From: Deuterostichococcus epilithicus
Lineage: Eukaryota; Chlorophyta; Trebouxiophyceae; Prasiolales; Stichococcaceae
Direction of reading: 5' to 3'
Length of the DNA: 64,000 nucleotides
Assembly: GCA_033439295.1 (NCBI GenBank)
Contig: JAVTLE010000013.1
Coordinates: forward strand, 2,914,001 to 2,978,000
This document shows, in pieces, positions 9,181 through 59,638 of the stretch. A program made the translations under genes and the position numbers. Numbering within the stretch: position 1 is the stretch's first letter; each line of letters begins with the position of its first letter. The notes under the pieces were generated by a model. The model did not search any database. It was not told where the DNA came from and saw only the letters and a list, made by a program, of their open reading frames with translations.

Positions 9181-9211
<31 letters not shown>

Positions 9212-10228
9212 GGCTGGCAGCAGCGAGGCCGCTGGTGGTGAGCGGCGGCGGCGGTGGCGGGGCTGGCAGCAGCGAGGCCGCTGGTGGTGGGCAGCGGCCA
9301 CGCGGCCGATGTCCAGCAGCAACAGCATGCGGAAATGGCTGCAGACGGCGGAGTGCGGGAAGGCGAGGTGGCAAGGCACCGACAGAATGACCTCCAACAC
9401 GTAGGGTATTCCGCTTCTACAAACCTGTTTGGGTCTGCAGATCTGCAACGCAGTGCTCACAGGTTCTCTGTCTGCATCTGCGACCGCACCTTGTGGCTGA
9501 CGTGGATCGGCAGGGTGTGAGTGCGGGCGCCCCATCGGCGCCGGACGCCGCTGCGTCTGCCAAGGCAGCAAAGACGCGGGCCGAGAAGGAGCGGCGCAGG
9601 GCGCGGCAGGGCGGCGCCGGCGACAGCGAGCCGGATGCTGGCGCTGAGGGTCCTGGGGGCAGCGGCACGCAGCCAGCCGGGGACGAATCAGCAGTCGGGG
9701 CAGCAGCCAGCGCCACAGCTGCGCCCGGCAGTGGCAGCGGCGGCGCATCAGCGGCCGCTCCTGCCGCGCCCGTGGATGGGGAACAAGCGGCGCCGCCGCG
9801 CAGCGTGCCAGCTGATGCGGCTGTGCTGCGGATAGCCGTCGCTGGCGACTGGACGATGTGCCCACTGAGCAAGGTGTGTGATATTTGTTTGCTGTCGGTA
9901 ATGTTTAGGTAACAGTGCACTGTGTGCTGAATGCACAGCCCTGCTTCAAACTCCGCTCAGTCTGACACATGCGATTTGTCTAAATCAGGATGCACTCTGA
10001 AGCTTTGAGCCTTTGACCTCGTCTGGCTTGCAGGAAGTCATGCGAAAACCATTGCTGTGCGCCTGCACCGATGGAAACAGCTACGAGCACGCCGCCGTCG
10101 CCGCATGGTTGGCCACGCGTGGTACCTGCTCTCCGCTGACGGGGGCGCCGCTGAGCAGGGCAGACCTCGTGCCGAACCATGCGCTGCGCAGCATGCTTCG
10201 TGACACGGCGGCGGCAAGGACTGCCTGA
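9106..10228 (+). CDS. U-box domain protein (putative E3 ubiquitin ligase)
   Basis: The 3' half is secure. An exon running to 9873 ends in DWTMCPLSK, and the last exon, 10034-10228, continues EVMRKPLLC, YEHAAVAAWL, SPLTGAPL and NHALRSMLRD before the stop. This is the U-box fold signature (CP-x-T/S-x-E-V-M-x-x-P, then SPxT and NHxLR), which recruits E2 enzymes without zinc. Ahead of it is a low-complexity Ala/Gly/Ser-rich stretch (about 9512-9800). The 5' end is uncertain. An ATG at 9106 opens an Ala-rich exon (MAQQTPPAAAPELEACLDL) that meets a 49-bp tandem duplication, where the plausible frame changes. A Gln/His segment (HAADVQQQQHAEM) follows in the other frame. Either splicing skips one copy, or the model is wrong there. 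The U-box is C-terminal. Confidence 0.7.
9193..9289 (+). repeat. 49-bp tandem duplication inside U-box gene
   Basis: Two nearly identical copies (9193-9240 and 9242-9289) have period 49. The duplicated segment ends in a possible donor (GTG|GTGAGC in the first copy). Because 49 is not a multiple of three, the frame AAARPLVV appears in different phases in the two copies. Confidence 0.85.
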
Positions 10229-10789
10229 ATGGCCGCAATGTAGGACAATGCATTCCAGCTTGCGATGGCAGAGCTGAAAGCTTTGACATTGCAGCAAAAC
10301 CGATCGTGTAGGCATTTCAGAAAGACAGTTTGCGGCTGCCAATGCATCTGACCATTGGATGACGGAGTGTGATCGTGGCTCGAGTCACGATCCTTCCTGG
10401 GGAGTTCGGCACGTTGCCAAGCATCTTGTGAGCCCAATGAAGCGCCAGCCTCGAAACTCTGGCGTTATCCAAGATGACGAAGCTGTTCGTACGTACGAAA
10501 CGCATGGTACATCATGCTGCCAAACCAAGCAGCTGAGCAGCCGTGCTCCCATTCACCAGGGGCAGGACAATGAATTGGTGCCCCAAACTAGCCCACATGA
10601 CCTACATTCTCTTCTACACCTACTGCACCCGCCAGATACCCGCAGCGTCCATGCTCCGCTTGCAAAACTTGCCTCAGAAGGTCTGGCCGCATGCGAGTTC
10701 GCATGGCATCCCAGCACAGCGCATCCCGGGCAAGCGGCATCTGGCGTGCCATCTGCCGCGTCCTTCCCCGGGCGCTGCCGCATGCCGCC
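10229..10789. other. Convergent 3' intergenic region
   Basis: Between the U-box stop and the CUL1 stop on the opposite strand. It should contain both 3' UTRs. No coding exon is supported. Confidence 0.4.
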
Positions 10790-13700
10790 TCACGCCATGT
10801 ACTTGAACGTGTTCGGTTTGTCCTGCAGACCGTACCGCCAAGCGCGTCAGTGCCATGCCACACCTCTGCCATAGAGACGGCAGCGCAGGAACGGCAGCGC
10901 CCATGCCCGGCTGGGTTTGTGATTGCGATGGATGCAGCTGTCCGCAGAAAGTTCATAAGCCCCCAGAAAGTAAGAGGCGTTGAACACAGGAAGCAGGAAG
11001 CGGGAAGGAGGCACACCGCGTCGCGCTCCAGGTACTCGCGGTCGATGAGGCTCTCGATCTGCTTCTTGATCATGCGCGGGTCCGGCTGGAACATGCGGCT
11101 CAGCTGGGTGATGACCTCCATGGTCAGCTGCGGGGGCAGCCGGCAGCAGGACTCGGATCACAGCCCGGCGATGCGCGCGACCGTGCTGCGGCGCGCAGCG
11201 CGCAGCACGAGCGGCATCAAGAGCACAGGAGGCAGCAGAACGTGCTGGGGATGGACACCGGCTGCTGTTTTGCACAGCAAGACCACCAGGCAACGCCCTG
11301 AATCACGCAACTGCACCATGTGCGATGGCGACACGCGCGGGGGCAATTGTCAGCTGCACAACGGGTGGGGGGAGCAGCATAGCGAGCTGGAGCGCTATCG
11401 CAGCAGAAAGGAAACCCACCTGCTGGTGGGGCATGACCTTGCGGGATTTCATGGTGCGCACGATGGCGGCGTCGATCGCGTGCTGCCGGTCCTTGGCCAC
11501 GTCCTCAGTCACCCGCTTCTTCTCGTCCGCCACCGCCGGCAGCACGATCTGCAGTGACGACAGATCTGGGTCTCGACACCCGAACAGTGCAGTGAACGAG
11601 GGGGCTGTTGGTGGCCGCATGCGGCAGAGGCCAGGCCTTGCCGCCAGACAAAGAACTCCGTCGCCGCTCGGCACAGACCCACACAAGAGCGGTGCACTGC
11701 CTGTGGGGCGGATCTCGCATGCTGCTGCGCCGCTTACACGATCCGGCCGGCACCGATGGACATGACCAGCCAGTACCAATGGACCGATGGAATGATCCAA
11801 CTGGTACCGACAGACATGATCCGGCCGGTCCCAAAGGACACACACCTGCACAACGAAGTTCGGGGAGTCGCGCTGCAGCCCCATGGTGCAATGCTCGTGT
11901 GCGCGGTGCACGCACCTTGATGCGGCGCATCTTGTCGGTGAAGCCGGCGTTGACGGCGAAGGAGTCGCCCTCCCCGATGGCCTTGCCCTCCGGGCTCTTC
12001 TTCAGCACCTTGTACTTGGCGCAGGCCAGAGAGTGCAGCACGCGTGTGAGGTCCTCCTTCGGCATGCGCAGCGCCTCCTGGAGCTCCCCGAAGGACAGCT
12101 CCTCGTCTGCGGGCAGTGGAGAGGCACGAGGGTGAGCGTTGCAAAGGCGTCGAAGAAGCCTTCGAAAGGGCGACGCCACTCTGCTGAGGCCTCGACTGCG
12201 GCCGCACATGCGCCTGGGGCAGCTGCCGGAGTGACACGCCTCGCGTTCAAGCGGCAAGCGCGAGCAGGACAACCATGCACCGAGCGCGAGTCTGCGGTCG
12301 GAAACACATCAGCTTTGCTGTAGGCCAGCTTGCAGCTGCGCAGCGCCTCCTGGAGCCTCCTGGTGCAAGGGCCGGAGGGAGCATCGTGTTTGAGCACAGT
12401 GGCCCCCTACGAAACCCCCACAGGACCGCGAAACCAAGTGCCGCAACAAAGGCACCGAAGGAAGAGCCAAGGTGACGCACTGTCGTTGAACTGCAGCAGC
12501 ACGGCGGCGTGGTAGGTGGTCGAGCACAGCAGCTCCACGGGCCGCGCGTCGAAGTTGCCCTTCACGGTGACGCCGCCCAGCGAGTAGATCCACGCCAGCT
12601 TGCGGTTCTTGGTCGTCGTGTCGTAGAAGGTCTGCACGCCGGCAGGGCAGCAGGGATCGGGGTTTGCGGGTCACACGAGGGCGGGAGGACGCCGCTATCT
12701 GAAGTGCCGAGTCCAACGCAGGAAAAAGTGACACTGCTGCTGTGATGAAGCAGCTCGCATTGCTGTGGCGCCCAAAAGGCCCTGGTCAGTGTGTCACCAT
12801 TCGCAGGTTGGCGACCCTGGCCAATGGTGCATGCCAGAGCCGGGTGATGTTGGCCAATGCGAAAGCCTGATTCCAGCAGCCTCTCGGCTCATGTGCTGGC
12901 AAAATGAATGCCAACAGCAATTGGCTGTTGCACAGCAGTGGAGCCCAGTTTTGGCTATTGCCAATGACACTGAAGCATCTTCCACCTAGACACAGTAGCT
13001 GGCACTGCGGTGTGGCGAAGATTGTGCCACAGCGGCGCCAGCATGCCATTTGTAAGGACTCTCAGAGTCATGCTAAGAAGCCTTAGAACCGGGTTGGGCC
13101 ACCTCAGTTTCGAGAGAATACGGGTGGGCCCACACCTTGAACTGCGCCTGGGAGTCCACCATCTCCTTGGGCAGGTCCATGTCGACGACCTTGTATGAGG
13201 GCCAGAAGCCAGTGGTGAGCACGCTGACGGTGATGTCGCAGCCGGCGGGCGCGGCCGCGGCGCCGCCCTGCTCCGCGCGCCACTCCTCGAAGCGCTGCTG
13301 CATGTCCCGCGCCAGCTGCAGGTCGCTCACCATGCCCTCCATCTGCAGGGGCGTCAGTGAAGGAGTTGGTAGTCAGAGAGTCAGGCCCCGTGAGTCACTC
13401 GTAGGTGTTAGTATCTGAGTACGTTGGTTTGCGACGGGCGCTGCCAGCCTGACAAACGCTGCTGCATGCCAATCGACGGCTGCATGTCGCTCAGCATCCC
13501 CACTGTCTGCGCGGCAACATGCAACATAGAGTGATGACTGTTATCAGAGGCTTGAGAACTGGAGTCGCTGGTGTGCAGATGCAGGCCAGTGGATGCGAGT
13601 GCTCCCCACCCAGAGCGCTGCTGCAGGCCGAGCCACGCCGCGGGCTTCAAAGTCATGACACTGACGCTGTCAAAATACCCAGCAGCGGGGCATCCCAACA

Positions 13701-16700
13701 GCGAGTCTGCACCTTGACGTGTGAGCCACAAAGCTGTCTCGGGCCGCAGAGTGCCGCATGGTGCTTCAAGTCCAGGCGCCCTCTAAACGCATCATACCCC
13801 CAGCTGATATGGGACGCCCTTGGTTTGTGATGCGAGGCATCCTTCTCGGGGACGCAACACGCCTCTGCGCTGATTTGTGTGCTGCGAATTTTCGAGCGAG
13901 CACTGCCTGGGGCCATCGCCAAAGGGTGATGAGTGTGGCTCTCTTGTCGGGAAGGGCTGTTGCCACACGTTGGCAATGGAATGTGCGTGACACTGGGCTG
14001 CGCCAGCACGACCCGGAGCCGTTCTTGTCAAGAACGGGATTTAAGAAGGCTGTCCGCCAAACCTTGGCGTGCGACACACGGATGCTGGGCTCGCACCAGC
14101 ACAGTTCGGGTCCAACCCATGTTCTTCTACATACTATGCTCCTGTCGGAAAAGAGGTCATTCACACCTTGGCAGTGAACTGCGCGCCGCACTGCTGCTTC
14201 AGCTGCGCCAGCACGCCACGTTCATGGTGCTCCGCCGAGCTCTTCTCGATGAGCAGCCGCCGCGACAGGCGCTTGCGGTAGAACTCCGCAAACAGGTCCT
14301 TGTCGGAGATGTAGGCCAGCAGCCGAATGACCTTCTCCAGCACGCCCTCGATGGCCTCATCGCTCAGCTTCTCCGAGCCGCCCTGCAACCGTCGTTTTCA
14401 GCGGAATGTTTTCGCGAAATGCAGACAGACACTCCTTCCGTCAAGGCGCATGCATCTCCTGCATGCTGCCCTGCTGATTGTATTGCAGGCACACACAAGT
14501 CGCTCTTGTGCTGAGACACCGCTTGTGTGCGAGGAGTTTGTGACGCACCTTCTTGAGCAGCGCGTTGCAGTAGTCGGCCATGAGCTGCGCCATCTGGCAG
14601 TTGGCGACCGGCTTGTTGCAGAAGGACTCGAAGGCTTCCTTGAGGGCCTTGTGGAACAGGCTCGCGCTGTTGAAGCAGCGCTCCACATACTGCAGTACAC
14701 GTACAGCATGTCAGAGAGCGTCACTGCAGCACATCTGCGCGGCTTGGCCGGCGGCGCATGCACCGTCCGCCCAGCACTCTGCGGCCGTGCCGCCCCGCTG
14801 GTGCAGGTCTTTTCGATAGTGCACCACATTGTGGCTGGACAGCCACGGCCGAGCCGTAGGTCGACCTCGGTCTGCCCGTTCCCTCGCGGGCTCACCGAGG
14901 AATGCAACACCACCCCGATGTTGGGGGTACACCTCTCAACCCACCTCTCAACCCACTCAGCCCGGCGCGAGATCCACACCTGCTGGTACTTGTCGTGCAG
15001 GTCCACGACCTGGCGCACGAAGCCCGACTCTGCGTCCTCTGCGCCCGGCGCCGCCCGCCTCTTGCCTGCGGGCGCGGTGTCGACCCGTCAGCACGCTGGC
15101 GCCTCGATTGCAGCAGCAGGGTAGCAGGGCGGCACAGCACCCGGCGGCACAGTGTGCGGCGGGAGAGCTCACAAGCGGCTGCGACAGCACAGCTGCGTGC
15201 CGCCCTCCTCCACGCATATGGGGCAGTGTGCATATGAGGCAGTGCCCTAAACCAGCTTGGAAGTGCTTCTGCGCACGCGCCATAAGCTGTGCAGGCTGAA
15301 CAGAGTATGCAGGACGTCCAGGAATGCCTTCCAAAGCCCCAGCATGAATGGCCAGCCTCGCTGGAGCTCGAGCCATACAGGACGAGCTTGACGCAGCATG
15401 CGTGGCCGAGCTGCAAGCCTGCACTATGCATCACAACACAGGCTCCATGGCGCCGTGCTGACACCAGCGCGCCGCCTGGTCGTGAGCGCGCCATGTCAGC
15501 GCGACATGCAGTGGCTCCTCGTCGTGTCGGCTGTGCACCCCCGCGCATCAGAAGCTGAACCCTCAATCTGGTAGGTGCAAGTTCTTCCACGGCTCGCACG
15601 TGCACGCTGACAGGTTGGGAGCATGTCGGCACATCCCGGCACGCACCGGCGGCGGCCTTTGCGGCGGCGGCCTCAGTAGCCTCCTTCACCAGTGCCATGC
15701 CGTCCGCCTCCACGTGCCGCCGGAAGGCGTCCGCGACCGGGTCCAGGCCCTTGGGGATGCGCGCAAACAGGCGGTACATGCGGGCCAGGTCCTCCTTCTG
15801 TTGAGAGGGAAGTCACGAGGGCGGTGTCAGGAGTCCAGGATTCCGATTTGCACGACGGAATCGTATGCGTGCGGATGCGGCCACGGCGCTCTATGTGAGA
15901 CTGCATTCGAGAGGTCGACATGTGTGCCAGCACAGGTGGTGCATGGCCAGAACGGTTGGTGTGCGCGAGCAGTGATACGGAGTTGCCGTCTGGCAGCGCT
16001 GCTGAAACAGCAGGGTAGGTACTGACGACTGGAAATGCAGCAACCACGAGCAAGAGGATGCACACTGCCATGTCAACGGCATTGCTTCCTAGCCACCTCT
16101 CAACAATAGCAGGGTGTGTGTGTATTCCAGGTTGATGTGTCAGGCAGCAACAATGACCGGCCCCATAAGCGCGGAAGCAAATGCAGACCTTGTCGTCGCG
16201 CAGCAGTGCGGCGCAGCCAGAGTTCTCCTTCTCCAGCAGCTGCTGCTCGTAGTGCGCCAGGACCTCTGTCTCCACCTGAGCGTGCCAGCAAAGTAGACCC
16301 TTCACTGCCACCATGTCTTTCGGACCATTTGCAACTTGGACTTAATATTACTAAAGCAAATTGTGGGGAGGCATCCAGTCGGTAGCGTGTGGCCCCGCAT
16401 ACAGGACCTGCAGCTGCCACTCTGTCCAAGAAGCCACACACGCAGGTGCTGCCCGTCAGGCTGGGATAACGCAGCTGGCCAGGGTCGGCGCCATGTGAGA
16501 GCAAGCGCTATCAATATCAAATTCTAGACAGCACCCCTTATCGTTATCATCATCGAATTCTGAAACTGAATGCCAATTATGAACAAACCTGCTCCAGCAG
16601 CTTGGGCTTGGTGGAGATGTGGAGGTAGTGCTGGACGCGCTCCTCCTCCTGCCGCAGGCACTCCTCTGCCTTGAGCATGTACTCCGGGCAGCTGTCCTCC

Positions 16701-19344
16701 GCAATCCACACCGCCGCCTGCGCGTGGATATTGGTAATGCTGTGAACCACAGGGCTGCGGAGGCCGGGAAGCGGCCAGAGAGCGCTGGGCACGGATGCAT
16801 CCTGTGACCAGGTTATCTGTGACAGGACTGAGCATGCACTCCAGGCGGCTGTCGTCTATGAACCGAGCCTGGGAAACTCAAAACCTGCACAGGTGCAGGG
16901 TCGGTGGCTGGGCTCTGACCAGGCACAGCGCAGGCGAATTGTCCAATGGTGCACATGCCAGCCATTTCCCGGCTCAGACTCAGCACATGCCTTGGCAGCC
17001 TGCCAGCCCTGGCGAGTCAGGCGTACAGGGTGTTGTGGGCTACAGCGGCGCTGCTGTGGGGCTTCAGGCATGCCACAAACCTACAAGCACTGCTGCCCTC
17101 AACCATCCCACGCACTTGATACACCACCCCCACACATGCTGGCGTACACCGGCGCAAGCGCTAGTGGAGGCCGGCAATCCAGTTCACCTCATCGAGCAGA
17201 AGGTAACATCGAGAACCAACCTTGCGCTTGTAGAAGGCGGCTGTGGAGGTGAGCAGCTCCGACTCGAAGTCTGCCTCGTACGCTTCCATGGACTCCATGC
17301 CCACCCTGATGTAGATGTCCAGCACATTCTTCACCAGCGCCCGATCAATCTGCACATCGTGCATGACAGGCATTGCAGTCCGGAGAAAAGCTGAAAAGCT
17401 GCTTCCTTCTGAGCCCTTGTCAGCTCAGTGAGCTGTAAAACCTTCCAGCACCCTTCTCTGCCGGCGCCCAGGCCATCTGCATGTAGGAGGCGCCTGGCAA
17501 TGCTGTGAGGGCTATGAATGAAGTCCTCAACAAAACAGGATGCCAGGGGCTGCATGCTAGTGTGTGGACGCCGCCGTGCAGGTCTCCACCAAAGGCCAAG
17601 CCTGCAAACACGATCGTTTGTCAGGTTGCTGCATGCCTATTGCTGGTCAGCTATTGTCACAAGTCATGTGCTCAACGCAGAAACCGGGCCGCCAAGTTCT
17701 GCGGAGCGCCACATCCCAGGCACCCAGGCGGTGGGAACTCAGCTCGCTGCACCTTCGCGGCGGCAGAGGCAACACTGCTGGGCGCCAGTGTGACGTTGCG
17801 CAGTGCAGAACTTGGCCAAAAGGCAGCGCCTAATCACCTCTTCATGCTCCGAGCTAACGCCGCAAGGCGCCATACCAGCAGCTTCTGCTCGGCAGGTTTC
17901 CTTATGATCATGCATGCATGCATGCTTCCAGCCACCGCCTGGCACGTTGACTCGCAGAACGACTGCACAAGGGTGGGCGCTGGCGGTGCACCTGCTCGTT
18001 TTCCCGCTCCCGCTCAATGAGCATGAGCAGTGCGTCCCGCGCTCGCCGCTTTATCTCCGAGTAGACCTGGTCTGCAGCAGGACAAAGGGCGGGCTGCTTT
18101 CACAATGGTGCCTAATCCTTCCAGGTTAGCAGAGCTGAGAATGTGCAGGGTGCGGCACGACGAAGACGAACGGACTTGACAGTGCATGCACAGAATTGGC
18201 AGCTTCCGATGCGGGAAAGTAGAAACAGCCTCTGTCACACTGGATGAACAGACCGTTACACATTGGCTGCAGGGCCCACTGTACCTTTAAAGCACTGCAG
18301 GCCCACATCGTTCAGCGACGATAATGAATGTCGCGAAATGTAGTACCTGCTCAAGGTCCAAGATTGAGTTGAAGATTTGCGATCGAGATCTGTGCAAAGG
18401 GCAGCCAGCTGCGGCGGGAATTGCCGGCATGGAACAACAGGTGGCCACAGCCCGAAGAGGCAGGAAATCTTATGCAAGCAAAGAGTTATGCGCACCGGTC
18501 CAGATAGTTGAAGAACCGCGACAGCCACCGCGTCATGATGTTGTGATTGTTCCACCGCCGGTGCAACTCCCGCAGCAGCTTCTCGTCCCGCTGGTCCCGC
18601 AACGACGGCAGCACCTGTCGTTGGTTGTGCCGGGTTGTGCCGGAAAATCGTCAGCTCGGCCAACGCGGCCAACGCCAAGTGCCGGAATGGTGTCCACAGT
18701 GTTCCACCACAGGTTCAGACAGCTGTGCAACCCATGCATCAGTGGCCGCTTCAGGCACCAAGACAGAAACGCACCGACTCATTGATATAGTAGCAGAAAA
18801 CGTCGCGGTAGCGGTTGTACAGCGCCTCCGAGTAGTCGTGCGGTGGCTTTTGCGTGCACATATTGTAGATCGTGCTGCAGCGACAGCGAATGGCGAGACA
18901 TCAACATGGACGCCACACGCACCCAGCAATATGCAGATTCGCGTGCACAGGGGGGGGGCGGATATCAGAGCGGGATCATGCAGATGGAAGTATGGCTGAA
19001 AACACAGATGCTTCGGTATGACCGCAAGGCAAGCACCGGCTGCCACTAGCTGCAAACCAAGCGCAGGCGCCCTGGGACGCGCACTCACGTATACAGCTGC
19101 ATGTACAGGTCAGCATCGAAGCTGGCCTCGTCCTCGCCCTCTAGCAGCCGCTTGAGCTTCGTGACGCCTTTCTGCAAGTCAGCAGAATCGCGCAGGTCGC
19201 AGCACGGCCGCGCTTGGGCAGTGGACCACAACGTGACCTGCGGGCCTGCAGGACACGCATATGCGGCTTGCAAGGCTTCTGAGATGCATGGCTCGCCTCC
19301 ATTTTGCTCCAGCCCTCCTCAAGCTCAATTGGCTTACGATCCAT
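10790..19344 (-). CDS. CUL1: Cullin-1 (SCF ubiquitin ligase scaffold)
   Basis: Nineteen exons join in frame to 750 residues: 19297-19344, 19089-19171, 18775-18874, 18496-18614, 18285-18346, 17992-18071, 17221-17349, 16589-16717, 16189-16275, 15647-15797, 14980-15065, 14549-14689, 14167-14382, 13136-13342, 12481-12631, 11916-12106, 11420-11548, 11017-11127 and 10790-10822. The N-terminus ([29 protein letters not shown]) and cullin repeats carry the SKP1/F-box contacts. The cullin-homology part has [32 protein letters not shown] and [11 protein letters not shown] for RBX1 binding. The neddylation site is intact ([11 protein letters not shown]), and the end is NTFKYMA. Order and length match plant CUL1 rather than CUL3 or CUL4. 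SCF complexes ubiquitinate F-box-selected substrates in nucleus and cytosol. Intron 1 begins GC (GAG|GCGAGC), the only donor that keeps the conserved frame. Intron 13 carries a decayed copy of the next exon's 5' edge. Confidence 0.95.
11736..11840. repeat. Imperfect ~24-bp tandem repeats in CUL1 intron
   Basis: About four degenerate units related to GATCCGGCCGGTACCGATGG and CATGATCC lie between the CUL1 exons 11420-11548 and 11916-12106. They look like a small minisatellite with no coding role. Confidence 0.6.
13444..13506 (-). repeat. Decayed copy of CUL1 exon 5' edge
   Basis: On the minus strand a GCAG acceptor is followed by 63 bases that align without gaps to the first 63 bases of the real exon starting at 13342. 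By eye about 44 of 63 bases match. Translation shows GMLSDMQ and MQQRL beside GMVSDLQ and MQQRF. It lies in the intron upstream of the functional exon. Confidence 0.75.
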
Positions 19345-26000: not shown

Positions 26001-27644
26001 TCCATGCGCTGTGAAGGCGCAATTGTCTGCTGCCTGGGGATGGGCTGTCATACAGGAGACCTGCCTGGCGCCTCCCTCTCTGCTGGCTGTGACTCCTGCC
26101 CAGCACACTGTCGCAGTTCGACCTGCAGCGGCTGGCTTTGACACCTCCCCAGCTTGCTGGTGCGTTTCGACCTGCAGCGGCTGCCTTTGACGCCTCTCCA
26201 GCGTGTTGTCGCAGTTCGACCTGCAGCGGCAGCTGGACGACGCCAAGCACCGCGCCGAGCGGGCGCGGCAGGAGGCCGCCGCCGAGGCGGTCGCCGCCAA
26301 AGAGGCTGCGGCTGAAGCCCAGGCGGAGGCGAAACGACTCAGGGCTGAGCTGGAGGCGGCAGCCCAGGAGGCGATGGCATCGCACATGACGCCCAGGTGG
26401 GATGAAGATAGAGTTTGTGCGACGGCGTCCGCAACCTCGAGAACAGGGGTTGGAACAGCGACCTGCATGGCGCAAGAGCTTAGCTTTTTGGCAAGAAGAA
26501 ATTGCATCCTGGGCACAGAGCGTCCAGCAATTGGCCTGCGGCAAGTCTCGCCGAGTTCTCCAGACGGCAGGTAGCACATTACTCTGAGTCCCGATAGCCC
26601 AGCTTCTCGCCCCTCGTCCGGCGGCCGGCACACATGATGCTGACAGGCTGACTTTCGTGTGTCTGCAGGTATGCCTCCAGCCCCACGAAAGGCCTCCAGC
26701 GCGGCGGCGGCGGCCTGCTGGGCAACGGGCACCACTCGGCCAGCGAACCACGGCCGGCGCGGCCGCCGCCCTCGCCCCGGGTTTTAGGGTTTAGCGGCGG
26801 GGACGGGCCGCAGACGCCGCAATCTGCGCGCATGGCCGGCCAAGGCGGCAGCAACACAAGGCGGGGTGGCGACGCAGGTGCGTGCTGGAAGTCCCGCATG
26901 CACATGCCCATGGCAGGCGTGCTGGTAACGCCGGCTTATCGGCGACGACATCTGGGGCTGGAGGGACGATCTGAGCTGCGGCTGTGGCGCCGACCCGCAT
27001 TACCGTCCCGGGCCGAACAGCCCGAGCCTGTCGATATCGAAAGACTGCTGCGGCACAAGGCTGCTGCAGCAGGAGGCTGCTGTGGCACCGGCTGCAGGGC
27101 GCGCTGAAAGCCCGATCAACGCAATGGCAGCAGGGGATACGAAGTCTAGCTCAGCATCCCCCGATGCAAGCTTGTGTGCGTGTGTGGACAGGCGACGCCA
27201 TCTCGGCGGTGGACCTGGTTTATCTGAAGAACGTCCTGCTCAAGTTTATCGACGCACAGTCCTCCGGCAAAACACAGGTGTGCCCTGTGATCCTGTTGTT
27301 TCCCCTCGAGTGCCTGGCGAGTTGCCGCCGGTGGCGGCGCCCTGCACTGCCGCAGAACGCTTGCTGTAGAGGGGACCGCCCAAAGACCCAACCGGTGCTC
27401 GCTCCTCACGAACCTCAGAAGGCGCATGCGTCGCCGACGGCCAACAGCCACCAGCCAGCACCGCGTTTGTCGCCCTGTGTCCCATCCAATGCTGGCTCAC
27501 GCGCAAAAGCCTGCGTCTGTGCAGGAGCGAGATGCATTGCTGCCGGCGGTGGCGACGCTGCTGCGTGCAACGCCGGAAGAATTCCGCGCGCTTCGCACCG
27601 CCGTCTCGAACGCCTCCTGGTGGCCCGCCTTCGCCGCCAGTTGA
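20061..27644 (+). CDS. GRIP-domain golgin (Golgi coiled-coil tether)
   Basis: The start sits in a good context (CACC-ATG) and reads MSKSYWQQKLQSSLQQSLQ. Phase-consistent exons are 20061-20164, 20320-20545, 20764-20955, 21189-21406, 21654-21848, 22115-22248, 22403-22470, 22706-22828, 22916-23022, 23246-23343, 23883-23977, 24216-24335, 24576-24663, 24920-25078, 25371-25568, 26215-26396, 26669-26877, 27192-27277 and 27525-27644, about 907 residues. Most are Ala/Glu/Gln/Arg-rich coiled coil, with a Gln run in exon 2. The last two exons encode a GRIP domain (DLVYLKNVLLKFID, then ERDALLPAVATLLRATPEEF), which binds Arl1-GTP on trans-Golgi membranes. One phase break between 23343 and 23883 implies a missing exon, perhaps near 23480 (TEAETQL). 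The introns after 22828 and 25078 fit only GC donors. A telomere-like motif lies in or beside the 26669-26877 exon. Confidence 0.88.
26113..26235 (+). repeat. 49-bp tandem copies of acceptor and exon start (golgin)
   Basis: The sequence TTCGACCTGCAGCGGC occurs at 26117, 26166 and 26215, exactly 49 bases apart. The third is the true 5' end of the exon after its CGCAG acceptor. The first keeps the acceptor; the second has GCGT instead of GCAG. The intron therefore carries two earlier copies of its own 3' splice junction. Confidence 0.85.
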
Positions 27645-36098: not shown

Positions 36099-38037
36099 TC
36101 ATGCGTTGAAGGTGAACTCCAGCAGCGCGAAGCGCCTCATGCACACTGGAGGTGGTGCCGCCGGCGGCTTGGCGCATGACGCCGCCCTCTGATGCTGCTG
36201 CCCCGCGGCACCCGCCCGTCCCTGGCGCAGCAGCTCATCCAACTCCCCTTCTTCCGGGCCGCCCCCGCCGCCAACTTTGCCACCGCCGCCGTCACTGACG
36301 CCTCCGCCGCCGCCGCCGCGGCTGCTGCCCAGCTGCTGCGGCACGCCCGGCACCTCAGCAATGCAAGTGCTGCTTCCCTCTGGCTCTGCAGCGGCGCGCT
36401 CTTGCCACTCCGCATCATATGTGCACACCACCTGCGGCAGCCATCATCCGGTTCAGCATCTCTGGTAACTTCAGAAGCAGCAGCAGGTCATAAACATAAG
36501 TCCAGCACAAGAGAAGTTGGCAGCTGGTCTGGTCTCGCAACAGTGACCTGCATGTCACACTGTCAAACCAGCAGCTTGTGCATGAAAGCTGGTCGGATGA
36601 AATTTCGCGCCTGCATGGATGCAGGCTTGCCATACCATTCCCCTGCAGGGGAATGCGCACAGGCCGTCCGTCACAGGCGGCAGGCGTTTCATTTCTGTGC
36701 TCAGGAAGCGGCATCAATTGTGTGACGTGAAGGCTCTGCATGAAACTGCAGGAGGCCGATGCGAATCTTCAGAAGCACTCGGCTGCAAGAGCCTGCTGCG
36801 AGAGCGTGGGAAAAATTTTCTGAAAAGAATGGCGTCTCATTCATGACCGAGCATGCCATGTCGTCCACCAGGACGCGCCTGCGCCCCAGCATGGTCATGA
36901 TATTCGAATCCATTCCGGCACGCCAGACTCTTTCGCCTGCGCAAGAACAGGGAGGTGAATGCACCGGACGGGTCAACTGACATGCATTGCCGCCGCACCG
37001 GTAGGCCTTGCAGTGCGGCAGGGCGATGTCCCAGCCGCCGCCGGCAGCAGCATCGCCGCCCCTACACTTTCCAGGGTGGGCCTCCTTGCAGTTTTTGGCG
37101 CCGCCGCCGCTGCCGGCACCATGCCCGCCGGCGGAAGCAGGATGCAGCGCCAGCGCCCGCCAGAAGCCGCGGTCCATGTCCAGGTGGGTGCCATGGCGGC
37201 GCAGCGCCTCCTGCGTGCGGCATGCGTGTGGACACACTGAGGTTTTAGGAATCGAATAAGAAAGCACTCGCTACTCACAGACACTTCGGTCCGTGTCCAG
37301 GTGCGGTGGGTGCATGGCGGCGCAGCGCTTCCTGCGTAGTGGGCCCACGTGGTGTCAAAAGCTGACGCACCAGGTCGTGGTCGGACAGCTTGGTGGGCAG
37401 ATGGCCACATCGCATGTAGTCCAGCACCAAATCAAACCCCGACTTGTTGATGTCCAGGCAGTAGGCACCGTCTTCCACCTGTGGGATGATGATGGCAGCA
37501 TTGTGCCATGTGCAAATGCTGACATCAGGTTGCGTTTGATGTATGCCTCAGAGATGAGAGCTGCATGTCTGCATCATCATGTGTCAAGGTTCAAGGGCAG
37601 CGGTAGCACAGCAGCCACTGTCAGCTGTGGTACACACGCACACACAGCACCGCCACAGCCTGTGGACCACAGGTGTGTGCCCGCTGCCGCCTAGTGCATC
37701 GAGGCAGGCGGAAAGGTTGCAATTTTGGTTCAATGTCGGCGCCCCTGTGTCTTGTGCCATGATCTGCAGCTCTTTGCTGTTGGTTTTGCAACAATTCGTT
37801 ATGCAGGTCCATGACCCTGCTGACAGCTCCAAAAGGCTTCACCTCGAAATCGGTCTCGCTCTTCAGCGCGAGGGCGAACAGTCCGGAATGCTTGCAAAGG
37901 GTGCCGACATGTGACTTGACGAGCTTGCCGTCCCGAAAGCGAAGCGACACCAGGGCATCCTTCTCAGTCGGCAGCCGCACCCGCAGGCCTGGCGACCTGG
38001 ATCGGCTGCTGCCGCCGCCTCTCATGGCTGATCTCAT
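36099..38037 (-). CDS. BTB/T1 (KCTD-type) domain protein
   Basis: Exon 1 (37843-38037) and exon 2 (37371-37478) join in phase 0 to give a T1-type BTB fold: DALVSLRFRDGKLVKSHVG, SGLFALAL, then VEDGAYCLDINKSGFDLVL and DYMRCGHLP. The motif D-x-N-x-x-x-F-x-x-(V/I)-L-x-(Y/F)-(M/L)-R is typical of potassium-channel tetramerisation/KCTD domains. Exon 3 starts at 37210 (EALRRHGTHLDMDRGFWRAL) and is rich in Gly and Cys; its donor is unclear, somewhere near 36850-37000. The last exon (36099-36431) is Gly- and Glu-rich and ends RRFALLEFTFNA. KCTD proteins oligomerise and often act as CUL3 adaptors; that role is only a family-level possibility. No membrane span is seen, so it is not a channel. Confidence 0.7.
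37283..37331 (-). repeat. Decayed copy of BTB gene exon 3 start
   Basis: The minus strand reads ACGCAG then GAAGCGCTGCGCCGCCATG, against ACGCAG then GAGGCGCTGCGCCGCCATG at the real exon (37210). After about 20 near-identical bases it keeps CACCC and CCTGGACA with small insertions. Offset 121 bases, in the intron upstream. Confidence 0.8.
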
Positions 38038-42058: not shown

Positions 42059-43293
42059 TCATGCCAGGAACCTGTGCGCAGCAGGTGCAGGGTCACGGCC
42101 CGCTGACGACAGCATAGGCGGCACGTGCGAGAGGCTGCCGATGCTGCAGTAGCAACACCATAGGGACGTATGGGGGCGAGCACCGAACGGTAGATGCGCC
42201 GAGGCGACTCGGTGCGCAGGAGCCAACAGGTTGCCAGTTGCACAGTGAGCAAGGAAGTTGGCAGGCACGCACCCGAGCCACTCGCCGTTCTTTTTCGCAG
42301 TCTGCAGCACCGCAGCAACAAGTCAGCAACGCGGCCTGAGGGAGCGACAGCCAACAAGAGCCCCACTGGCCCAGATCCCGCAGCTGCAACGAGGCTCGCC
42401 GTATCGGAGGAGGAGGCGCACGAGGAGCAGGACAGAATGCACATTGCGCCCACTGTGCCCAGGCTGCAGCGCCTTGGGACGCTCAACGTGTGTGTGCGAA
42501 GCACGGGACGACAGACCTATTGGCTTGACCCGGCAGGGATCGCAGTAGCAGGGTTTAGAGGGGGCGCACCCGGATGAGGCCCTGCGCCTGCTTGCTGCTG
42601 GCTCCGAGGTACTTCTGTACAAAGTCTTTGATGACTGCAGGACAGGAGGACTGTGCCTCAGATGCGGCGCCCAAATGACTGTGCGCACGCGCACGGGGGA
42701 ACAAGCAGGGGCGAGGCGCGATTTGCGGCAGCACAGGGGTAACGCAGCAGATTGCGACGGCCGATTGTCTGGCGCACAGCGCCGTCACCACATGTACGGC
42801 ACAGTGCAGCAACCGGCACTGGCTTGCCGGCGCCGGCTCGCCAGCCCTGGCAACCCCCGGGCGGGAAGCTGCCACCAGGGGGCCAGGGGGCCGACGAGAG
42901 CGCCGGAGGGCTTTGGTGCGGTTGGAGGCACACACCTTGGGAGTGCAGCGAGATGGCTTTGCCTCTCAACTTGTTGAACTCCTTTTTGCCGATGACATTA
43001 CGCGCCTGCACCACCAGCGGCGCAAAGGGCCCCGTGGCGCCCTTGTTCCCCATGCGCGTCACCTCGCGGCTGGGTCTGCCTGCAGTGACAGCCGAGCCCG
43101 CGGACCGTGAGGCTTTGCCCGTGGGGTTGTGCTGCGGCTGACGCTGGATCAGGCGGTGCACAAAACAGAGGCTTGGCAGAAGCAGCTGCGCAGTGCTGGC
43201 GATCTGACAGGCTTCGAGGCTTGCACGCAGCCTCGGCCGGGCATACGCATGAAATGGCTTTTTGCGCTCCTTGAACCGAAAGCTTGCTGCCAT
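42059..43293 (-). CDS. PGR5: PGR5 (proton gradient regulation 5), plastid
   Basis: Four exons (42936-43293, 42570-42634, 42273-42301, 42059-42071) join in frame to 154 residues. The mature part is unmistakable: GPFAPLVVQARNVIGKKEFN, KLRGKAISLHSQ, VIKDFVQKYLGAS, KQAQGLIR, AKKNGEWLGFLA. PGR5 is a small stromal, thylakoid-associated protein that with PGRL1 promotes antimycin-sensitive cyclic electron flow around photosystem I and protects it in fluctuating light. The first 70 or so residues are basic and Ser/Arg/Ala-rich (MAASFRFKERKKPFHAYARP), acting as transit peptide; this is longer than in Arabidopsis, so a hidden intron in exon 1 is possible. The last exon carries only four codons plus stop. 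A telomere-like CTAAACCC motif lies just after the exon 2 donor. Confidence 0.92.
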
Positions 43294-49240: not shown

Positions 49241-49455
49241 AGAAGTATCAATTCGCAGTGCTAGAATACACCGGGTCAGTCGCGGACAACTAGGTCCAAG
49301 CCATCAGCATGGCGAGTCTGAGGCCAGCATTGATGCGAAACTTGCGGTTTGAGAGGTTGTTGACCAAGTAGACCCTGAACAAACCCTTTGAAACCTGAAC
49401 ACGGGCATTGGAAAGTCACTCCATGCGTCAGGAAGAAACTCATCGTCAGTGTGTG

Positions 49456-51199
49456 CTATACATTTGGCGCCTTGATCAGCCCGGCGGTCCAGGGCACGCT
49501 GGCGGGTGCCGTCTTGTGCTCCTGCCTGTATCCTTCGGAGTAATCGCCGCGGGAATTAACGACCAGGTTCGTTGCCGCCAGGTCGGTGTTGCCGTCCCAG
49601 CCGTCCTGCCGCTTGAGCCAGCAGGCTCCCGTGGTGTGGTTCCTGTAGAAGAAGGTTGTAGATAAGTCGGCCTGCTTAAAAAACGCCATTCACATTGGTG
49701 ATGGCAGCGCCATGCCAAGAGCTTCACTGACTCTGTCCAGCGGCTCTAAGCAGCCAGCCACAAACCGGCGTGCTGCTGGCGGAAATTCAGGTCGTCTGTG
49801 CGCTGTGCCTCTACAAGACCCGGCATTAACGCAGACAGGGAGGGCTGCGCCGCACCAGATGTCTGGCGTCCAACACACGCCGCTGGGGTCGCCTGCAGGC
49901 ACACCACTCGTGTCACACTGCCACTGCGTCTCCCCGCAGTGGTGCGCTCACAGCTCTGGCGCAGCTGCAGCCTGCTGTCTACCAGCAGCCAGCAGGCTGC
50001 TATGCCACCTCACAGTGTGCTTCCTCGAGCCAGTCCTCGTCAGAGTCCTGGACCTTCTGCTGATGATGCTCTCACAGCCGACAGCATCTGCTGGACACCT
50101 CCCCCCAGTGCATCATACTACGGAGACGCACCGCACCACACCCAGACATTGCAGCTGTCGGGCGGCGCCGACCGCGCCTTGCAGGCGGCGCAACAGGCGG
50201 CAGCGGAGCGTGTTTTGTGGTCCAGGCCCCAGCTGATGCCGGCGCCTTCGTAGTCGGCGTGGGGCTCTGCATGGCAGTCGTCCGGCAGTGGCTCCTCCAC
50301 CAGCTCGTGCTGCATCAGGTTTGCACAAGAAAGATTCAGCTTCGTGAAATGGAACCCCCAAGCGGATACTGGTGCCTTTACTAGCTCGTGCTGCAGTGAG
50401 GTATGCACAAAAGACTAGCCCGATGTGTGCAGCCTCACATTTACACAGCTGCTGGACCAGCTCATGCTGCATTTCAACAGCCACATCGTCATCTACAAGT
50501 CCGGAGGCACAAGCATCGGCTCGTTGACCAGCTCGCGCAGGTGGAAGCCAGGATTGCCGTCCACAGCTTGCCATTCTGATGTCAGGGCCTGGTGCGCGCT
50601 TTGGCGTGGGAGCAGAGCCGCTTTGAGCAGTTGGGTCGTCAATTGACACGTCTCGAAGCACCGCCGTGCATATACGAGAAACAGGACATCTTGACTCACT
50701 GCCAGAGAGTCTGTTGTACTCAGCGCGCTATCCAACAGCCTGAGGGTCCTGCCAGCACCCACCTGTTCCAGTGCGTCATCCTTGCCAGTGTAGTAGTAGA
50801 TTTTGCTGCTGTTGCCGTCGGCAGAGGCCGCGGATGCCGGCTGCCCTGCAGCGCTAACCTGCTGCATTGCGGCGGCAGCGGCAGCGGTGATGCTGCCATT
50901 AATGCTGACGCCGCCTGCTGCCGACGCAAGCTCCTGCACAAACATGCAACCATCAGGAGGTGTCCACCTGGAATGTCATCCTGCCTTCTGCTTCAGGATC
51001 TGCTTGCTGCAAGGTCGAGCCTGTCCTGGATGCCCACCTGCCGCGCGCTGGCTGACGTGAACGACACGACCGGCACAGGGTTGCCGCGCAGCGCGATGCC
51101 AGTCGCAACCAGGGCGGCGATGGTGACGCTCCAGAAGCACAGGCAGCGCGCCCGCCGGCGTGTCCGCCGCCTTTGCGCCGCCTCGATGCGTGCTCGCAT
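49456..51199 (-). CDS. Type II membrane protein with Cys-rich Apple/PAN-like domain
   Basis: Five exons join in phase to 244 residues: 51038-51199, 50763-50933, 50132-50309, 49856-49892 and 49456-49642. A basic cytosolic tip (RIEAAQRRRTRRRARC) precedes one membrane span (FWSVTIAALVATGIAL). A Ser/Ala/Gln stem follows. The lumenal domain has an ordered Cys/Trp pattern: PDDCHAEPHADYEG, AAACCAACKA, SCNVWVWC, GVCWTPDIW and TGACWLKRQDGWDG. The CC-x-x-C plus W-V-W-C and CWLK spacing is like algal Apple/PAN-type domains that bind glycans or proteins. The assignment rests on the cysteine layout only. The 37-base exon (49856-49892) is supported by phase and by its Cys/Trp motif. Two decayed copies of the exon 3 acceptor edge lie upstream in the intron. 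Confidence 0.65.
50362..50411 (-). repeat. Decayed copy of exon 3 acceptor edge (Apple/PAN gene)
   Basis: The minus strand reads TTTGTGCATACCTCACTGCAG then CACGAGCTAGTAAAGGCACC, matching the true junction at 50309 (TTGTGCAAACCTGATGCAG then CACGAGCTGGTGGAGGAGCC). Both the intron end and the exon start are copied. Offset 81 bases. Confidence 0.75.
50446..50467 (-). repeat. Second decayed copy of the same exon edge
   Basis: The minus strand has ATGCAG then CATGAGCTGGTCCAGCAG, again like the exon 3 start (GATGCAG then CACGAGCTGGTGGAG). Offset 157 bases from the functional junction. Confidence 0.55.
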
Positions 51200-52093
51200 G
51201 AAGCTACCCCCAGAAGGATCGACCCCTTGACGCTGTCGTGGCGAGCAATTGCTGTGAAGATGTAGCCTCACCGGGCTGCCGGCACTCTCGCTCGGCGCCG
51301 CGCTGCCTGCAGCGAGCACACATGTGTTTGTTCTGTTGAGGATCAGAGTGCAGCATGGTCAAGATAAAACAACCGACTGCATTGGCAGCATCTGCACGAC
51401 ACTCCCCCCTCCATTCCCTCGCCGCAGCGCAATGCCGATGGCCGCATGCTCCTGCGGCAATGATCACACCACCGTACGATGACTGCTGCAAGTATGCTGT
51501 GCAGGTGAGATCGGCTCACCGTGTCTGTGCTCGAGCACGTCTGCCAACGCGCCAAGTAGGCGAGGTCAGGTCGCCCAGGTGATCTGCGATGCTCTGGCGG
51601 GCATAACAGCCTTGGTACGGGCTGAGTCCGGCTCGGAAGAGGAATTGTACGTTTCGAAAGACACAAATGCGAGTGTATGCTGCCAGGCTGAGTGAAAAGC
51701 ATTGATCAGTCATGCACGACACAAGTGTGAGGGTTCAGCACAGCGGTTCTTTGCGTCCAGCGACGAATGGGTCGATGACCGGATTGTGACGTTGCAAAGC
51801 AGATGCCGTTTACCCACATCGCAAGTTGCGCGGCAGCTTATAGGCCGGTCGACGATTGCGCTAGTCGCTGACCGCTCAGTGTCAACCCTCCTGACCGAAA
51901 TGCTGCGCCCGGTCGTGCGCCTCATCGCTTGGCTAGCGAATTGAGATCGAAACTGCAGTCAACAAATGCCCTCGGATCACGCGTTTCGGATCGGCTCCAA
52001 GTTTGAATCGTAGCAATATTCGCTGCCCCTCATACCGCCACTGGCTGCAGCAGCCCGGCCTAGCACGCAACCCGCGGCTTTGCGGCCGGCTGC
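51200..52093. other. Divergent intergenic region
   Basis: About 0.9 kb between the Apple/PAN gene start and the PQ-loop gene. No supported exon. Presumed promoters and 5' UTRs. Confidence 0.4.
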
Positions 52094-54730
52094 ATGCCAG
52101 CCGCTGGCTGCACAGGCGCCATGCTGCCCACCGGCCGACCTGCGGCGGCGGTGCCGCGTGCGCAGCAGTACACTCAGCTTGTCAGCCTCAACTCCTTCAG
52201 CGGCAGCCAGCTCGATCAGCGGCGACCAGCTCGGAGCCAGCAGCGCGCACTGATCACGCACACAGTCGCAGCATATGGCTGCAACGCTGATCGCACCCGG
52301 CTGAGGGAGGGGCTACATGGGCTGCACAGCCTGCCGCAGCAGAGGGGGAGGCGGCGGCGCGGTCGGCCCGGCGGCCGGGGACCAGCGGCCGTCTCGGCGG
52401 GCGTATTGCAGCCGCAGGTCCACCACATGACGCTGACGCAGCTGTCGGCCCGATTCCTGGTGAGAGCTCCCGACAGCCAACCATGTCACGCCGGGTTTGT
52501 GGACCGTGCTCTTGAATGGTGCACTCAAGCCAGCCCTGCGACTGGGAGGGACGAGGGGGACTCTAGGTGACCCCTTGCCTGAAGGACTGAACCCTGCCTG
52601 CAGGGCTACGCCGTGCTGGTCGGCTCTTGCTTCCGCAGCACGCCACAGATCATGCGCATCATCCGAGCAAACAGCGCCGCGGGCGTCTCCCTGTTTGCCA
52701 GCATCGCGGAGCTGGTCGCCTACAGCATTACCTGCGCCTACAATTGGCGCCTGGGTGCGACCCTCTGGCTGTCCATGTGCGACTGTCAGCCATTGCCCCG
52801 GCTGCTTTCGGTTGCCTCACAATATGTCACACAACTCAGGGTGGACTACGATCCTGTCTGAAAGGCAATCCCGGGCAGTACTGAAGGGAATGTCCTCTCT
52901 CCAGCATGCACATTGTCTCTTCCGACTGCTCTCGGTGATCGAACAACTCTTCTGCTGCAACCACGCTCCCGCAGGCTGGGCATTCAGCACGAACGGGGAG
53001 GGGGCGGCATGCTGGGTGCAGGGCATCTTTGTTGCGAAACCAAACCGCTGTGCGATCCCCATGCAGGCTACGCCTTCAGCACGTACGGGGAGGTGGCAGC
53101 GTGCTGGGTGCAGGACATCGCGCTGATTGCGCTCATCAGCCGCCACATGCGTACCGGGCACAAGCGGCTGGCCGCCGCTGCGGTCGCCTTCGCCGCCTAC
53201 TGCTGGTGGCTGCTGTCGGACAGCTGCACCCTGTCCACGCTCACAGGTAGGCATAGACGGGCATTGTCTTATGTTGCGAAGCATCGTCAGGAGCCTGTAA
53301 ACTAGGACTCTCCGAAGCAACTCCACGACCGACGACCTTGTGGCGGCGCGGCAACAGCCAGTCTGTGCATTGCGCTGCCGCTGCATGCTCCGTGACAAGA
53401 CATGCTCATGCGCTGACACAACAGGATAGTGACACGACTGTCTTCGCCTCTGAGGCCGGCTGACCGTTTGGTTTCCGCCGCCGCCGCAGTGCTGCAGGCG
53501 TCCACCATCTCCATGATCGCGCTGGGCGGGCGGCTGCCGCAGATCGTGCTCAACATCAAGCGCGGCGACAGCGGCGAGCTGTCCATCACGACCTCCGCCC
53601 TCAACCTCGCAGGTGCTGCTCGCAATTCCAGACGCCCTTGCGAGCTGAGAGTTCTGCAGAGTCCACGAGCCTTGCGGTTCCGTGATGGCCTGCTGCACCT
53701 GGGGTCGGTGGGGCAGGGGACGGTGGACTTGTGCTTGTGGATGAGGACCGGCGCACTGCTACCTGCCACCTGCTGCCCTAAACCCTAAAGTGCGCAAGCG
53801 CCCGCAGGGCGACCGGAGGTTGCTGCTCAGACTGCACACCGCTAGGATGCATGCGCGCATTTGGGACGCTGGTGATGACCAAGGACGTGCTGCTGCTGGT
53901 GCATCCAAGGTCTAGGACGAGACCACGACGACATCAGAAAATTCCCCCTGGCCCTTGCGGCGCAGGCAACCTGGCGCGCGCCTTCACGACGCTGGTGCTG
54001 ACCAAGGACGCGCTGCTGCTGCTGGCCAACGCGGTGCAGGGCTGCCTCAACTCCGTGCTGCTGTACCAGACGGCGATGACGGCGGTGCGGCGGCGATCCG
54101 AGCAGCGCCGGCGCCTAGAGGCCGCTGAGCTGGCTGAGTTCGGCGATGACGATGAGGTGAGGCGTGGCGGGTTGGCTCTGGTCGTAAGGGCTAAACGCAT
54201 TCATTGTCTACACCTGGCGGTAGGCTCCTTGTTTTACGCCTGTATTCAATGGCTGGGAGTCAGAGTCAGAGTCGGAAGCCACACAGTTGTGCTGAGGGGC
54301 GCAGCCGGGAGATCTGGGTTCCCGCCCCTGCACCTGCGGGTTGTGAGGCTGATGTCTGATGCATCCTGCTGGCCGCATCTGCGGAGGATCTTGGGACTCT
54401 TGAAGACATCCCTGATCAATCGCCCCGGAATCAATGAGAAGAAGTCCATCGCACTGCCACCCAATGACCCTTGCCCCCGGCCTTCACTCCTCGAGGCAGG
54501 CGCCGGAGGCGAGCGTCTCGCCGGCGGCCATTGAGGCGGTAGAGGACGCGGACGAGGCCTCGGCGGCCACGGCCATGGCGGAGGCCGCGGAGGGCGGCCT
54601 GGCTGACGGCGGCTACGGCGGCGTCAGCAGCGGCATGCTGCTGGAGCCTCCGCCGGGCGAGTTCATGGACCTGGCCGGCGGGAGCGGCGGCGGCGGCGGT
54701 GGCGGCGGGCCCGGCACATCAGACTTCTGA
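52094..54730 (+). CDS. PQ-loop membrane protein, MPDU1-like
   Basis: Exons 52094-52459, 52604-52754, 53067-53246, 53490-53612, 53966-54156 and 54500-54730 fit in frame (about 413 residues; an in-frame ATG at 52121 is an alternative start). Two PQ-loop repeats are visible: CFRSTPQIMRIIRANSAAGV with SLFASIAELVAYS, and LGGRLPQIVLNIKRGDSGEL with SITTSALNLAG, followed by ARAFTTLVLTKDALLL and QGCLNSVLLYQ. Spacing and residues match MPDU1 (mannose-P-dolichol utilization defect 1), an ER protein needed to use Man-P-Dol and Glc-P-Dol in N-glycan and GPI assembly. The N-terminal 100 residues are low-complexity and the acidic, Gly-rich C-terminal tail is an extension not found in animal MPDU1. Two introns hold decayed copies of the following exon's start. 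Confidence 0.85.
52975..53027 (+). repeat. Decayed copy of PQ-loop gene exon 3 start
   Basis: After its own CCCGCAG acceptor, 53 bases match the true exon start at 53067 at about 45 positions without gaps (for example CTGGGTGCAGG and ACGGGGAGG shared). Translation gives FSTNGEGAACWVQG beside FSTYGEVAACWVQD. Offset 92 bases. Confidence 0.85.
53846..53903 (+). repeat. Decayed copy of PQ-loop gene exon 5 start
   Basis: After CTAG, the sequence reads RAFGTLVMTKDVLLLV in translation, beside RAFTTLVLTKDALLLL in the real exon (53966). Bases ACGCTGGTG, TGACCAAGGACG and TGCTGCTGCTG are shared. Offset about 121 bases. Confidence 0.85.

Positions 54731-55365: not shown

Positions 55366-59638
<4,273 letters not shown>

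Follow-up and report, generated by a model that had tools for sequence, protein, structure and literature searches.

The window examined here is a 64-kb stretch of the Deuterostichococcus epilithicus genome (contig JAVTLE010000013.1, positions 2,914,001 to 2,978,000), in several genes of which an exon edge (i.e. an exon start or exon end) is present a second time, in decayed form, within the adjacent intron. Gene models were obtained with a hidden Markov gene finder that was self-trained on the sampled sequences. The gene finder converged on CAG/GTGCG as donor and YGCAG/G as acceptor (slashes mark the splice points) and called 446 introns with a median length of 204 bp. Ten gene models of the window were searched against Pfam and eight were matched, counting a PAN-like model whose PAN_4 score of 26.5 lies just below the cut-off of 27. 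Matches above the cut-off were obtained for cullin (two models), TMEM144, PQ-loop, U-box, acyltransferase and HAT1, with the larger cullin model matching Pfam Cullin in one stretch (E 6.8e-119). An earlier reading of this DNA, made from the letters alone (the sequence-only reading), had named the affected genes; its cullin, TMEM144, PQ-loop and U-box assignments were borne out by Pfam and its PAN assignment fell just short. Neither the BTB model nor a second TMEM144-like model (29.9-31.4 kb) had a match in the Pfam search.

Copies were sought in the window and in 17 stretches of 10 kb (L002-L018), one per contig from 17 contigs, giving a total of 234 kb from a genome of 46.8 Mb and 21 contigs. 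A further 20 kb in all, flanking the window (L019 and L020), served as a hold-out and was scanned separately. At offsets of 20-399 bp, the window contained 47 ungapped self-match segments with scores of at least 18 whereas two control sets, each of 380 far offsets, contained none; a single GCA microsatellite at 58.4 kb accounts for many of these segments. When segments were filtered for complexity, at least 67 with scores of at least 16 were found in the 234 kb, whereas four far-offset sets averaged 0.75, and the largest 40-bp offset bin was 100-140 bp.

A direct test of exon edges was then based on 60-mers at exon starts and ends, which were compared with their own intron, using foreign introns as the null. 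This test took in 411 introns of at least 60 bp (110 of them in the window) and excluded intergenic gaps. Of 613 edge tests, 29 had a match scoring at least 84 at an offset of 75-180 bp as compared to 1.9 expected; at other offsets there were 8 matches for 5.0 expected. The 29 matches had offsets of 94-170 bp (median 127, mean 131, sd 20) and were spread over 12 of the 18 sequences. Both exon sides were represented: 22 matches were on the acceptor side, in line with the suggestion that nearly all copies are of this type, and seven were on the donor side, more than that suggestion allowed for. Among exon-start 60-mers, 30 of 348 exceeded the 99th percentile of the null (3.5 expected) and 18 the 99.9th (0.35 expected). 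The equivalent numbers for exon ends were 13 of 341 (3.4 expected) and 8 (0.34 expected). Interior 60-mers, taken in four sets, exceeded the 99th percentile in 5/204, 1/191, 1/98 and 2/86 cases (2.0, 1.9, 1.0 and 0.9 expected) and the 99.9th in 3, 1, 1 and 0 (0.20, 0.19, 0.10 and 0.09 expected), this small excess peaking at exon bases 61-120, within reach of edge copies. A comparison of exon edges with exon centres against controls, put forward as a genome-wide check by the sequence-only reading, came out in favour of the edges in this sample.

The hold-out contained 2 matches at 75-180 bp in 58 edge tests (0.1 expected) and, at other offsets, 3 matches at 214-223 bp (0.2 expected). Exon-edge copies in introns are real and not limited to the window, and they recur across most of the sampled stretches. 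The introns with copies at 214-223 bp (L019 7145-7446 and L020 8598-8845) fall outside the main offset range, and their spacings are possibly two units.

Within the window, all eleven offsets listed by the sequence-only reading were placed to within 2 bp (the second offset of 121 being 123 at 53853), and the corresponding features are given in Table 1. A third pair compatible with an offset of 157 was present (28323/28475) in addition to the two originally given. Two of the listed pairs were less clear than described: the 106-bp pair (29825) is marginal and the 92-bp pair does not place a copy in a predicted intron. The U-box repeat, offered as probable, was found, with part of it in low-complexity sequence.

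Table 1. Exon-edge repeats and their working counterparts in the 64-kb window (positions from the first letter of the window; S, score)
Feature	Positions	Strand	Evidence
U-box: 49-bp tandem duplication at exon end and donor	9193..9298	+	96% identical; partly low-complexity GCG
Cullin, 164-bp pair: working exon start	13275..13342	-	Pfam Cullin covers junction in one stretch
Cullin, 164-bp pair: decayed intronic copy, AG kept at junction	13438..13510	-	73% identity, S 141
Cullin, 157-bp pair: working exon start	16672..16717	-	Pfam Cullin for gene model
Cullin, 157-bp pair: intronic copy of exon bases 19-46	16829..16856	-	86% over 28 bp
Golgin-like: three 49-bp tandem units, intron into exon start	26082..26233	+	TRF; i84E19 in gene model
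TMEM144-like (28.2-29.7 kb model): working exon start	28323..28386	-	Pfam TMEM144
TMEM144-like: intronic copy with AG, offset 152-157	28475..28546	-	S 129 and 114; acceptor score 5.2
TMEM144-like, 122-bp pair: exon piece	29376..29420	-	repeat pair list
TMEM144-like, 122-bp pair: copy upstream of exon	29498..29544	-	77% over 47 columns, S 117
TMEM144-like model, 106-bp pair, marginal, at predicted gene end	29825..29987	-	S 100, 70%
BTB (name from sequence-only reading): working exon start	37161..37210	-	no Pfam match
BTB (name from sequence-only reading): intronic copy, strong AG acceptor, offset 117-121	37278..37337	-	82% over 60 columns; acceptor score 5.1
PAN-like: working exon start	50289..50309	-	repeat pairs at 50289/50291; not a match in edge test
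PAN-like: two decayed copies, offsets 81 and 157	50370..50472	-	S 134 and S 85
PQ-loop, 92-bp pair: upstream member, called exon by gene finder	52964..53027	+	82% over 67 columns, S 208
PQ-loop, 92-bp pair: downstream member, exon start at 53067	53053..53119	+	gene finder calls both members exonic
PQ-loop: intronic copy of exon bases 11-59, offset 123	53853..53901	+	86%, S 175; acceptor score -2.9
PQ-loop: working exon start	53966..54024	+	Pfam PQ-loop for gene

The splice signals and coding constraint of the copies were assessed using event lists and intron sets that predate the edge test. The early event lists are undercounts, as a length-dependent complexity filter dropped long alignments, and the sets of spacers, acceptor scores and null or simulation pools took in some intergenic gaps as introns. 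Of 19 acceptor-side copies (one of them an intergenic-gap case), seven had a strong acceptor (score of at least 5) no more than 6 bases from the junction of the copy, as compared to 4.7% of random intron positions, and 15 had an AG of any kind, as compared to 57%. The median score of working acceptors was 5.8. The claim that copies include the splice site does not hold for every copy: the similarity begins at exon base 19 in the copy at 16829 and no earlier than exon base 11 in that at 53853, where the sole nearby AG is weak and 3 bases off. Mismatch rates at codon positions 1, 2 and 3 were 0.186, 0.203 and 0.263 (1407 sites, first event list), indicating that the copies are under no coding constraint, as expected of the decayed sequences originally described. 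The mild excess at third positions agrees with synonymous changes of the exon itself added to those of an unconstrained copy. This mild excess was the only signal for coding or mutually exclusive exons, which were rejected as an identity for the copies. All substitution kinds were present, and repeat-induced mutation was likewise rejected.

Some loci carry arrays. The array at L003 7118-7436 consists of three copies spaced by 120-123 bp; an 88% alignment covered 104 of about 120 bp, and all copies together gave 213 columns at 74%. Its last two copies have 24 pre-acceptor bases and most of the exon start in common. This array is young, and nearly the full unit was duplicated, the intron part included. 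Similarity also reaches into the intron at L016 2273 and L018 4659. On the donor side, the array at L014 119-523 comprises an exon end copied three times within the intron in steps of 107-117 bp. Several arrays occur within the 10 kb of L018, which is a local duplication hot spot.

Further pairs or arrays in L018 lie at 372-833, 4501-5006 and 5880-6375, some of them younger than most (identity up to 0.92). An exon start encoding LDLYCGCGGL is present at L018 1880-2561 in about five decayed copies upstream of the apparent working exon, and two unit types seemingly alternate among them. We take this exon to be part of a DNA cytosine methyltransferase-like gene.

These copies are fairly probably relics of short tandem duplications that chanced to span an exon-intron junction. 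The visible class of duplications measures about 90-170 bp, and shorter ones, of about 20-60 bp, form a class of their own. A duplication over a junction would produce two acceptors (or two donors); if the outer site were then spliced, the protein would be unchanged and the spare exon-edge copy would become intron. The spare copy would decay without constraint while the working exon was conserved, leaving the exon-derived half recognisable for longest, and repeated duplication at some loci would give rise to arrays. Break repair or replication slippage presumably generated the duplications. From simulation, most events appear to be old, at about 0.2-0.3 substitutions per site.

An excess of copies at exon edges over exon centres would be expected under junction-spanning duplication without any targeting, because duplications within exons alter the protein and most are removed by selection. 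Edge copies are also more visible, since constraint preserves the working exon whereas decay affects the intron flanks on either side, and the geometry of a junction-spanning duplication places the spare copy in the intron. The contention that random duplication is made unlikely by the repeated inclusion of junctions is accordingly not established, as selection, geometry and visibility favour edges anyway. The effect is probably, for the most part, an ordinary by-product of DNA duplication masked by splicing. The length of exon taken into the copies (n=18) averaged 59.8 with an sd of 19.2, in agreement with simulations in which break-points were random (means of 58-63 and sd of 16-21). Beyond the aligned exon end there was no continuation of similarity (0.292 as compared to 0.314 for the null; 33 cases, four of them by intergenic gaps), and on the junction side of the same cases no clear continuation (0.336 as compared to 0.314). 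In fully exonic pairs, the start offset was divisible by three in 7 of 9 and the offsets at both ends in 4 of 9. No need arose to assume a fixed-distance unit centred on the junction. Stacked ungapped profiles had uninformative means, since offsets jitter, and their strong matches were nearly all at 90-170 bp.

A number of results weigh against plain, untargeted duplication. The event list at 75-180 bp comprised 35 events, i.e. 32 edge, 1 noncoding-only and 2 exon-only. Neutral uniform placement, with ages fitted to 30 edge loci, predicted about 18 noncoding-only events in this range, of which the one was seen. At 15-75 bp, 5 of 14 events were noncoding-only, so the pipeline does detect short noncoding repeats. 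The similarity of intron flanks was near chance for 18 acceptor copies, none of them at an intergenic gap (mean z 0.40, 0.15 and 0.04 with different null samples; Stouffer 1.7 and Fisher P 0.14 for the run with 0.40), and simulated neutral duplications with near-observed exon similarity gave flank mean z values of about 1 to 2.6. The joint P was 0.005 in the best of eight settings and 0.00025 or less in the other seven, and the log-likelihood totalled -28.7 against plain duplication, a value uncorrected for selection bias. Young events of 75-180 bp were scarce, with pairs of at least 0.87 identity in the event list confined to L018. Edge pairs in the event list were also in excess at 180-300 bp (13 as compared to 1.75) and 300-600 bp (10 as compared to 2.25); several of these sit within arrays, and the edge test had no clear excess at such offsets. 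On the side of junction-spanning duplication, in L014 and at L012 1128-1449 each of the intronic copies pairs with the exon, and copy-copy pairs are absent from the event lists. When identity was mapped via the exon, exon-copy values exceeded copy-copy values in both L014 (0.73-0.76 versus 0.57-0.61) and L012 (0.67-0.70 versus 0.58). Unrelated intron pieces scored 0.65 (sd 0.07) on the exon-copy measure, which places L012 inside the baseline, and the exon-centred star pattern was absent from the L003 array and two L018 arrays. The star pattern is thus weak evidence for that reading, the more so as copies were compared through exon alignment.

The shortfall of noncoding-only events requires either an old burst or some targeting. 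Detection chances by age, simulated with a corrected complexity filter, indicated that noncoding-only pairs of at least 0.26 substitutions per site are nearly undetectable (detection of 0.01 or less). An ancient burst could thus reconcile the shortfall with junction-spanning duplication, and a constant rate would not. The low flank similarity could result from selection killing the redundant acceptor, from heavier indels in introns or from mainly exonic copying.

Targeting is a possible but distinctly less probable explanation, under which duplication of about 120 bp is favoured around exon edges by some mechanism associated with splice junctions; candidates include pre-mRNA-templated repair, exon-bound chromatin and R-loops prone to breakage. 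The predominance of edge events, though noncoding positions (101346) outnumber edge positions (51811), fits such a process, as do the weak similarity of intron flanks and the overlapping offset ranges of donor-side (122-163) and acceptor-side (94-170) copies. The fit of copied exon extents to random break-points speaks against it; an old burst would leave the same scarcity of noncoding-only pairs, and young events are too few to decide. It is conceivable, on tentative grounds, that junctions attract duplication of about 100-170 bp through a process linked to transcription or splicing, perhaps mainly of the exonic part, and that introns grow by serial edge copies. Competing pairing was considered and rejected: the reverse complement of the exon edge gave no clear signal in spacers or introns (35.1 versus 36.3, and 51.4 versus 47.2 with an sd of 8.8).

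It is rather unlikely that the copies are functional decoys, i.e. sites retained for a role in adjusting splicing, whether by serving as alternative acceptors or poison exons or by competing with the working site. The seven strong copied acceptors approach the working median, and exon halves are preserved better than intron flanks, as decoys might require. However, 12 of the 19 copies have no strong acceptor, coding constraint is absent, the L014 copies seem to diverge independently, and retention is near neutral decay by a rough estimate rather than simulation.

Tandem duplication inside a gene, with the splice sites contained in the copy, has reportedly been described by Hellsten and colleagues. 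An origin of this type, in which duplication of an exonic AGGT segment (Rogers model) leaves the repeat as the scar of intron birth, is very improbable here, and the intron-gain by-product suggested by the sequence-only reading was not upheld. Under the AGGT model (Hellsten et al. 2011), offset should equal intron length at birth; the intron exceeded the offset in 25 of 29 cases and equalled it in 1 of 29. That single case (L009 6728-6835, offset 108) is suggestive, as the intron opens with a copy of the exon start. The upstream exon end was not matched upstream of the copy (36.8 versus 36.0 for the null), a result that also gave no signal for mRNA-derived copies.

Chance, low complexity or gene-finder artefact has equally little probability and is refuted for the bulk of the matches by the far-offset and foreign-intron controls, the hold-out and the Pfam matches of eight of ten models. 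It may apply to a minority, as 1.9 of the 29 matches are expected randomly, some pairs lie in repetitive coding sequence, the gene models lack an RNA check and 2 of 10 have no Pfam match. Least probable of all is the insertion of a mobile element that resembles an intron and produces a long target duplication. Although offsets are bounded and the spacer fell within 39-111 bp for 19 of the 22 acceptor cases, spacers were unrelated between genes (mean 35.2 versus 32.9 shuffled; maximum 62 versus 66) and no family was seen among 6000 sampled between-locus intron pairs, of which 2 scored at least 100 as compared to 0 when shuffled.

Published reports contain partial parallels to junction-spanning duplication. 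In the potato RdRp gene, a tandem duplication over an intron-exon boundary is described as having created a new intron (Ma, Lan and Niu 2016, PMC4974935); this was a single recent event, whereas the present duplications are recurrent, seemingly mostly old, form arrays and lie inside an existing longer intron. Small tandem duplications have been presented as products of break repair (2021, PMC8355091), and these resemble the present copies in being short direct duplications of local sequence. The insertions in that report are under 100 bp, as compared to offsets of 94-170 bp in the visible class here. Any microhomology or overhang signature of break repair by Pol alpha-primase or Pol theta would be blurred at the present break-points by decay. 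Direct repeats of 4-30 bp (mean 11.4) near intron splice sites (2025, PMC11782384) are similar in lying around exon-intron borders; they pair the surroundings of both intron ends and are insertion scars, whereas in the present genes it is the interior of the neighbouring intron that matches an exon edge, over about 30-70 bp. A literature search, the coverage of which left out most subscription journals, returned no account, at the scale of a genome, of introns carrying decayed exon-edge copies. The pattern is best filed as recurrent, apparently old, junction-spanning tandem duplication, extending a known precedent to recurrence.

Were the whole genome to behave like the sample, roughly one in twenty-odd of the tested exon edges would retain a readable trace of a duplication tolerated through splicing. 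Such duplication would be a common route to intron lengthening and to competing splice sites, making intron growth measurable in a compact genome. Should the junction bias survive a test on young events, it would suggest a link of splicing or transcription to local duplication.

Additionally, telomere-like tracts, (CCCTAAA)n, were observed mainly in introns. Of 25 strong tracts, 22 were intronic, 2 intergenic and 1 exonic, with introns making up 98 of the 234 kb. The window contained 9 occurrences of CCCTAAAC as compared to 0.44 expected. Telomere-like tracts in the window are located at 7033, 15248, 20991, 23552, 42553, 53781, 56685, 57896, 63668 and 63867, and others were found in L002, L003, L004, L005, L010, L011, L012, L016 and L017. 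Eight of the 22 intronic tracts read CTAAACCC and precede the 3' splice site by 13-35 nt; another four read TTTAGGG and follow the 5' splice site at a distance of 14-36 nt; at 42553, near a 5' splice site, the sense strand reads CTAAACCC. A link between tracts and exon-edge copies was rejected: an edge copy was present in 2 of 22 motif introns and 27 of 400 others (p 0.66), and, of 22 strong tracts, 2 lay no more than 8 bp from the boundary of an event (0.38 expected), which was not significant (p 0.057).

GC donors were predicted for 39 of the 460 introns called (window and L002-L018), a high share given by a gene finder that was free to choose them. A single N occurs next to a C run at position 29483 of the window, and several other loci contain a few Ns. 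The GCA repeat of the window (58427-58562) is long, codes for glutamine and lies inside a predicted exon.

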